Shown here piece after piece: positions 42,010 through 56,695 of a stretch of DNA of 64,000 bases (positions within the stretch are counted from its first letter, which is position 1; the number at the start of each line of letters is the position of its first letter). The stretch is from Brachyhypopomus gauderio (Eukaryota > Chordata > Actinopteri > Gymnotiformes > Hypopomidae). Below the pieces are notes generated by a model. The model made no database searches, was not told where the DNA came from, and saw only the letters and a list, made by a program, of their open reading frames with translations. The translations under genes and the position numbers were made by a program. The stretch lies in assembly GCF_052324685.1 (NCBI RefSeq), contig NW_027506878.1, forward strand, positions 20,001-84,000. The letters run 5' to 3'.

Positions 42010-42079
42010 ATGCAGTCTGTGGAGGATCTCGGTTGGAAGAAGTTGAGTTCTTTCTCACTGAGCCATTATGGAGATTCAG
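42010..42079 (+). CDS. Leader exon of GIMAP-FIIND-CARD gene
   Basis: Begins at the first ATG after a TTTCAG acceptor and ends before GTACAG in phase 1. It encodes 23 residues plus one base, including GWKKLSSFSLSHYGDS, with no recognised domain. An equal-length (70 nt), same-phase relative at 63171-63240 and a broken one at 42979 support it as a genuine family exon. The upstream exon is non-coding or unseen. Confidence 0.65.

Positions 42080-56695: not shown

Follow-up and report, generated by a model that had tools for sequence, protein, structure and literature searches.

Does a single fish gene join a pair of immune-associated GTPases of the GIMAP family to the FIIND-CARD half of NLRP1 and CARD8, and if it does, what might its product do? 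The question is raised by positions 42010 to 56695 of a 64,000-nucleotide stretch of Brachyhypopomus gauderio DNA (the window; C34:20001-84000 of the 796.5-Mb assembly G000), where a sequence-only reading had proposed 12 exons with agreeing phases and a total of 2,796 nt, or 932 codons including the stop. We rebuilt this model from the window exactly as claimed. The spliced coding sequence of 2,796 nt comprises 931 codons and a stop, the donors of exons 1–11 are GT, the acceptors of exons 2–12 are AG, and the phases agree. The NCBI model LOC143488702 of B. gauderio (P0003, 912 amino acids) is the same from exon 2 to the stop. By its predicted product, the stretch is one protein-coding gene with the order GIMAP-GIMAP-linker-ZU5-UPA-CARD, and chance is excluded as the origin of the joined domain model.

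A Pfam search of the 931-residue product bore out this order, returning two AIG1 domains, FIIND (ZU5), UPA-FIIND, and CARD, all above cut-offs. The AIG1 match (PF04548) falls in two stretches with a whole-protein E of 6.2e-83, and is followed by FIIND at residues 573–699 (E = 7.7e-47), UPA-FIIND at 704–814 (E = 2.4e-28), and CARD at 845–926 (E = 2.8e-12). A UPA after a ZU5-like FIIND places the protein in the FIIND family, and its C-terminal domain has the CARD fold. Because the five Pfam families found in the product include neither NACHT nor LRR, it is not a NOD-like receptor; two AIG1 domains stand instead before the FIIND-CARD part, in the place of NACHT-LRR, as had been suggested. The GBP N-terminal GTPase domain (PF02263) is also absent from these five families. 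We additionally scanned all stop-to-stop fragments of at least 25 amino acids in the six frames of the window with the AIG1, FIIND, UPA, and CARD profiles (E ≤ 0.01). The scan gave two AIG1 domains, one FIIND (in two exons), one UPA (in three exons), and one CARD, all on the plus strand and all in this gene; these four profiles found no second GIMAP pair, FIIND, or CARD in the window.

The same domain order, which the sequence-only reading had proposed to seek in other teleosts, was found there. Two protein searches, from which we fetched the best 120 of 289 and the best 120 of 1852 matches, yielded 226 proteins; sensor classes were assigned from Pfam lists, with isoforms and near-copies counted as separate proteins. 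AIG1 lies upstream of FIIND in one chain in 34 of these 226, from 19 species. The plain architecture AIG1(1–4)-FIIND-UPA-CARD accounts for 21 of the 34 (in four the CARD is visible only via Pfam) and occurs in B. gauderio, Astyanax, Metynnis, Serrasalmus, Colossoma, Hoplias, Prochilodus, Pangasianodon, Ictalurus furcatus, Hemibagrus, Alosa pseudoharengus, Osmerus mordax, O. eperlanus, and Esox lucius. The other 13 have a doubled FIIND-UPA (five), an extra CARD or PYD in between (four), complex models (three), or, in gar P0165, a terminal PYD (one). A gar-centred search, all 60 matches of which were taken, added four gar proteins with AIG1 and FIIND (P0227, P0228, P0229, and P0236), two of them with PYD. 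The alignment rows mostly cover residues 247–445, and a row that is not listed excludes nothing. For nine of the 19 species the joint is present in LOC-named models; some joined models, above all those named hypothetical proteins, may be mis-joined. In the databases the GIMAP-FIIND-CARD chain appears mostly under uncharacterised proteins.

The FIIND carries the residues associated with self-cleavage. The ZU5-UPA-CARD half aligns end to end with rat NLRP1 (7crw, E = 6.1e-23) and human NLRP1 (6x6c, E = 2.3e-20). In HMMER alignments with CARD8 and with the NLRP1 of rat and human, His663 falls on the His of 'AHF' and Ser690 on the Ser of 'FS'; a catalytic Ser after a hydrophobic residue, with a His upstream, therefore occupies the NLRP1/CARD8 positions, in agreement with the earlier comparison of this half to those two proteins. 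The 27-residue spacing of His663 and Ser690 equals that of CARD8 His270 and Ser297. In the available part of PMC3210808, His270 of CARD8 is functionally important by mutagenesis, and Ser297 (NLRP1 Ser1213) was mutated when autocleavage sites were confirmed. Of 133 aligned FIINDs, 132 retain the Ser and 122 the His; the GIMAP-class FIINDs have the Ser in 36/36 and the His in 31/36. In six NACHT-FIIND proteins (P0054, P0058, P0078, P0080, P0091, and P0104) the His is replaced by Arg while the Ser is kept, and these are possibly uncleavable NLRP1-like proteins.

An AlphaFold2 model built on 37 sequences has a mean predicted local distance difference test score (pLDDT) of 74.9. The CARD and UPA are confident, the ZU5 half is patchier, and the linker at residues 486–538 is disordered. 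Its fold matches are GIMAP4, GIMAP2, and GIMAP7, the CARD of the zebrafish GBP-NLRP1-like protein, to which the CARD here is closest, and the FIIND of rat NLRP1. The same genome contains a PYD exon followed by a CARD exon, each with an ASC construct as its best PDB match (5gpp and 5gpq), and by this likeness it encodes an ASC-like adaptor. Zebrafish NLRP1 requires ASC (PMC9978379, as available in part).

From the conserved residues and their spacing, the structure model, the ASC-like gene, and the published requirement of NLRP1 for ASC, we infer self-cutting, release of UPA-CARD, and nucleation of ASC. The protein is thus probably, on balance, a self-cutting sensor of the NLRP1/CARD8 type that is released by degradation and has a tandem GTPase as its input. 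The FIIND would cut itself between Phe689 and Ser690 by means of His663, and the GIMAP-ZU5 and UPA-CARD halves would stay together non-covalently. Pathogens or danger states would act on the GIMAP tandem, which would sit at the surface of a membrane or vacuole or form an oligomer under nucleotide control. Once damaged or ubiquitinated, the N-terminal half would pass to the proteasome; degradation would halt at the cut and free UPA-CARD, which would cluster, nucleate ASC by CARD–CARD contact, and recruit fish PYD caspases.

Several observations weigh against this assignment. The His is absent from 5/36 GIMAP-class FIINDs. Ahead of the cut-site Ser the window protein has Phe, like NLRP1 and CARD8, whereas 31/36 GIMAP-class FIINDs have Leu there, a residue after which the literature consulted does not establish cleavage. 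Nine residues after the His stands Ile, against Glu in NLRP1 and CARD8, so an acidic residue is missing at this position; the Glu here is at +7, as it is in 32/36 GIMAP-class FIINDs. The +9 Glu, which we take to be catalytic in NLRP1 and CARD8, may not be a defining feature, and it occurs in 0/133 of the fish FIINDs counted, NLRP1-like ones included. The predicted template modelling score of the AlphaFold2 model is 0.46, so domain packing is not predicted, and residues 673–681 of P0003, just past the cut site, have pLDDT below 50. The G3 motif of both GIMAP domains is EAPG and not DxxG, which makes nucleotide-driven switching uncertain. Finally, the NCBI model comes from the same species and hence is not independent of the assembly.

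An alternative role would be that of a brake or scaffold, in which the GIMAP tandem serves survival or membrane traffic as in mammals, while the CARD, acting as decoy or anchor, binds ASC or caspases and nucleates nothing. GIMAPs are mostly discussed as survival and scaffold proteins in the accessible part of PMC8201404, and the loss of the His in the GIMAP class is accompanied by its loss in 6/47 NACHT-class FIINDs. We nevertheless consider this role unlikely, with both His and Ser intact here, the family-wide retention of these residues given above, and a CARD nearest to that of the zebrafish GBP-NLRP1-like protein.

The properties of the GTPase part bear on a second alternative. Both domains have GIMAP2, GIMAP4, or GIMAP7 as their best PDB matches and intact P-loops (G1), so GTP binding is plausible from their motifs. 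With Glu for the G3 Asp in both, GTP hydrolysis cannot be assumed. Across the 70 AIG1 domains upstream of FIIND, the P-loop is intact in 62, and G3 reads EAPG in 48 and DTPG in 13. The mix is similar in fish GIMAP8-like proteins without FIIND (EAPG in 229 and DTPG in 120 of 408 domains). The protein might then be a GTPase-driven sensor like zebrafish Gbp4, in which the N-terminal part assembles on a microbe or vacuole in a GTP-dependent way and so brings the CARDs together directly, self-cutting playing a lesser role. In the parts available, PMC9978379 describes Gbp4 as dependent on its GTPase activity and on ASC, and PMC8201404 describes GIMAP2 as dimerising when GTP-bound; the intact P-loops here and in most of these relatives agree with such assembly. 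The change of the G3 Asp in both domains, and a canonical DTPG in only 13 of the 70, speak against it, and we regard this version as rather improbable. Aligned with each other, the two GIMAP exons (43582-44292 and 46310-47011) agree at 651 of 711 positions, which reflects recent tandem duplication or gene conversion.

That gene finders, the sequence-only reading among them, wrongly joined two adjacent genes, one GIMAP8-like and one FIIND-CARD, is hardly credible. In its favour, the locus lies within a GIMAP8-like cluster (50/53 tblastn rows on C34/C87, among the matches listed), long introns with a Tc1-like remnant separate the two parts, and read-through past the exon 3 donor meets a stop at 47062. 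Against it, the NCBI model is also joined, the phases agree across three small linker exons, annotations from 19 species, with gar, smelts, pike, and Alosa among them, show the same joint (nine of these species have it in LOC-named models), and the plus strand from 47064 to 53363 contains only three stop-to-stop open reading frames of at least 80 amino acids, all overlapping the Tc1-like remnant. Because these three are the only such frames, there is no sign of another large domain that could head the FIIND (profiles run: AIG1, FIIND, UPA, and CARD). The proposal of one gene linking the GIMAP pair to FIIND-CARD is thus upheld.

Among known systems, the closest in plan is zebrafish. Pfam gives Danio P0099 as GBP-GBP_C-FIIND-UPA-CARD, an immune GTPase before FIIND-UPA-CARD as here, and it aligns with 96% of the FIIND-CARD query at 51% identity; it differs in its GTPase family (GBP versus AIG1) and in lacking the tandem found here. 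In the available part of PMC4932187, a figure showing human GBP5 and zebrafish Gbp3 and Gbp4 names GBP, FIIND, and CARD in its legend, where the bearer of FIIND is not specified. The claim of a different input module accordingly stands for the GIMAP pair itself, whereas a GTPase before FIIND-CARD is not new in fish. NLRP1, fish NLRP1 included, is NACHT-LRR-FIIND-CARD, while the window protein is without NACHT, LRR, or an N-terminal PYD and has two GIMAP domains as its input. It resembles CARD8 in its FIIND-CARD and His/Ser spacing; we know of no folded sensor domain N-terminal to the FIIND of CARD8. Fish GIMAP8-like multi-AIG1 proteins share the tandem AIG1 and the EAPG G3. Three from B. gauderio match 51% of P0003 at 84–86% identity, and their Pfam lists contain no FIIND, UPA, or CARD. 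Gar P0165 (AIG1x4-FIIND-UPA-PYD) shares the GIMAP tandem before FIIND-UPA and ends in PYD instead of CARD. P0231, P0241, P0242, and P0252 (salmonids and Umbra) combine FIIND-UPA-CARD with another large GTPase, of SLIP-GC type, which differs in being dynamin-type (PF00350); this is their domain content by precomputed Pfam lists. In the same lists, P0231, P0241, P0242, P0251, P0252, P0279, and P0274–P0278, from other fishes, have FIIND-UPA together with a SLIP-GC-type GTPase, in a protein named SAMD9, or alongside either a PYD or a death effector domain.

In the snail Biomphalaria, AIG1 occurs with N-terminal death-fold domains, the CARD type included, and dual AIG1 genes exist (PMC7053062, in part). 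These fusions differ in the N-terminal position of the death domain, and 'FIIND' does not occur in the available text of that paper. We found no description of a GIMAP-FIIND-CARD chain in the part of the open-licence PMC literature available, and papers elsewhere are possible; a search for AIG1 with FIIND in that literature found nothing. The one GIMAP and FIIND paper concerns, in its accessible part, fusions of the TRADD-N domain with AIG, GBP, and FIIND and not this chain, and a GIMAP joined to CARD8 or NLRP1 in one chain does not appear in the available parts of PMC12576477, PMC13141973, PMC6690157, and PMC8195603. A GTPase before FIIND-CARD is already known in fish, and the GIMAP version is, as far as the available part of the open-licence PMC literature goes, undescribed.

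The FIIND-CARD tail is found in the same match lists with NACHT-LRR, GBP, TRIM, MORC, SP140-like, SLIP-GC-type GTPase, and other partners. Together with the GIMAP fusion, these suggest FIIND-CARD as an output module that plugs into many immune sensors. On a FIIND-UPA tree of 133 rows, sampled by similarity to the query, the GIMAP label (36 rows) needs eight changes, four of them forced by starred branches. Adding the rows classed GIMAP+CARD/PYD to this label, and leaving out rows with no known sensor, gives 10 changes; without the two longest rows (P0145 and P0151), 40 GIMAP rows versus 71 NACHT/MORC/SP140/GBP/TRIM/STAT rows need four. A single clade of all GIMAP forms is weakly rejected in this last set (p-AU 0.037, on a quick tree, in a test whose count excluded rows classed PYD, Ig, caspase, or none). 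With these label changes and this test, we set aside the idea that GIMAP and FIIND were paired only once; sensor parts were probably swapped more than once, and, since sampling was by similarity to the query, we claim swapping only.

We also compared linkers, taking 27 of 25–260 amino acids (25 after removal of near-copies). A phosphodegron, [DSE]SGxxS, occurs in 3/25 linkers, a number matched by 27/1000 shuffles, and was dropped. An SSGYGS-like motif, picked after the linkers were seen and absent from the window protein, occurs in 8/25 GIMAP-FIIND linkers (0/1000 shuffles), in 0/47 NACHT-FIIND proteins, and in at least 20/100 fish GIMAP8-like proteins without FIIND. This distribution hints that the linker may derive from a GIMAP8-like tail.

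If the sensor assignment holds, tandem AIG1-type immune GTPases would be an added kind of input, in several fish groups, for the NLRP1/CARD8 class of self-cutting sensors. The rule that the N-terminal part is bait and that release follows degradation would become testable in a new setting, and GIMAPs, whose role is still debated, would gain a concrete candidate output. Because GIMAP and FIIND-CARD (or FIIND-PYD) share one chain in ray-finned fishes as far apart as gar, Alosa, smelts, pike, and characins, GIMAPs could conceivably be natural upstream partners of FIIND-CARD in general, such that separate GIMAPs gate NLRP1 or CARD8 in mammals; we regard this extension as a long shot. NLRP1 is reported (Cirelli 2014) to control the susceptibility of rat macrophages to Toxoplasma. 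Further reports, each available in part, would fit such gating: GIMAP4/5/6 relocate to the Toxoplasma vacuole membrane in Lewis rats (PMC13141973), DPP9 block kills resting human T cells through CARD8 (PMC7527815), and loss of rat GIMAP5 causes profound peripheral T lymphopenia (PMC8201404).

The features of the gene are collected below.

Table. Features of the GIMAP-FIIND-CARD gene, in window positions
Feature	Positions	Strand	Remarks
Putative exon 1	42010..42079	+	ATG start, phase 0->1; not in P0003, unsupported
Alternative start of NCBI model (MYFA...)	43569..43581	+	Runs through exon-2 acceptor
Exon 2, AIG1/GIMAP domain 1 (model residues 34-235 = 43611-44216)	43582..44292	+	Phase 1-1, P-loop GYRGAGKSS, G3 EAPG
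Exon 3, AIG1/GIMAP domain 2 (Pfam part 46333-46938)	46310..47011	+	Phase 1-1, P-loop GYRRAGKSS, G3 EAPG
Exon 4, basic linker	48119..48176	+	In NCBI model; identical in second copy
Exon 5, Ser-rich linker	50018..50122	+	In NCBI model; identical in second copy
Exon 6, linker end with FxPE motif	53331..53423	+	FxPE before FIIND in many printed relatives too
Exon 7, first part of ZU5 half of FIIND	53496..53713	+	Pfam, profile scan
Exon 8, ZU5 end and UPA start	54247..54500	+	His663 54276-54278; predicted cut Phe689-Ser690 54354-54359
Exon 9, UPA	54901..55011	+	Profile scan
Exon 10, UPA	55113..55275	+	Profile scan
Exon 11, UPA-CARD linker	56153..56191	+	Also in NCBI model
Exon 12, CARD (56432-56677) and stop TAA	56424..56695	+	Pfam, profile scan

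The locus occurs again, in reverse orientation, on contig C87, where 7.8 kb align at 98.4% identity and several sites nearby also match one to one; this copy is either a haplotig or a large duplication of recent date. It has exons 2–12 with all splice sites and an open frame, and differs by seven synonymous and nine non-synonymous changes (ratio of non-synonymous to synonymous change, pN/pS, 0.35). Both copies are open from exon 2 to the stop. An in-frame 6-nt deletion in exon 12 of the C87 copy (L013) turns Ser-Gly-Gly into Cys, so that CARD length differs between copies.

The NCBI model and the second copy thus corroborate exons 2–12 of the 12-exon chain but not exon 1, which is missing from the NCBI model and, in the second copy, only 77% identical within a rearranged segment. 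P0003 begins instead at ATG 43569, within intron 1 of the 12-exon model. By eye, exon 1 of the second copy retains the start, donor, and phase, and an acceptor-like sequence right before ATG 42010 suggests a further non-coding exon upstream. Exon 1 is unproved and weakly conserved.

The GIMAP exons are symmetric, each holds a whole domain, and they lie amid GIMAP8-like exons, a setting that would suit exon shuffling. Across the assembly, the first half of FIIND occurs at 12 places on C34, C87, C7, C18, C19, and C14, and a CARD exon lies within ~4 kb downstream on the same strand at seven of the 12. At L017 (G000:C14:5990500-5999500, minus strand), a C-terminal PYD exon comes after FIIND exons, and inspection by eye shows LRR-like exons upstream; this B. 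gauderio FIIND-PYD gene ends like the gar FIIND-PYD proteins. Within the window, the Tc1-like transposase remnant occupies 49002-49538 on the minus strand, in intron 4, and exons of an ependymin-related gene lie at ~18600-19400 on the plus strand (PF00811, E = 8.1e-18, two joined pieces of open reading frame). In intron 5, at 52790-52825, a run of ~30 G was noted by eye, possibly an assembly or sequencing artefact.
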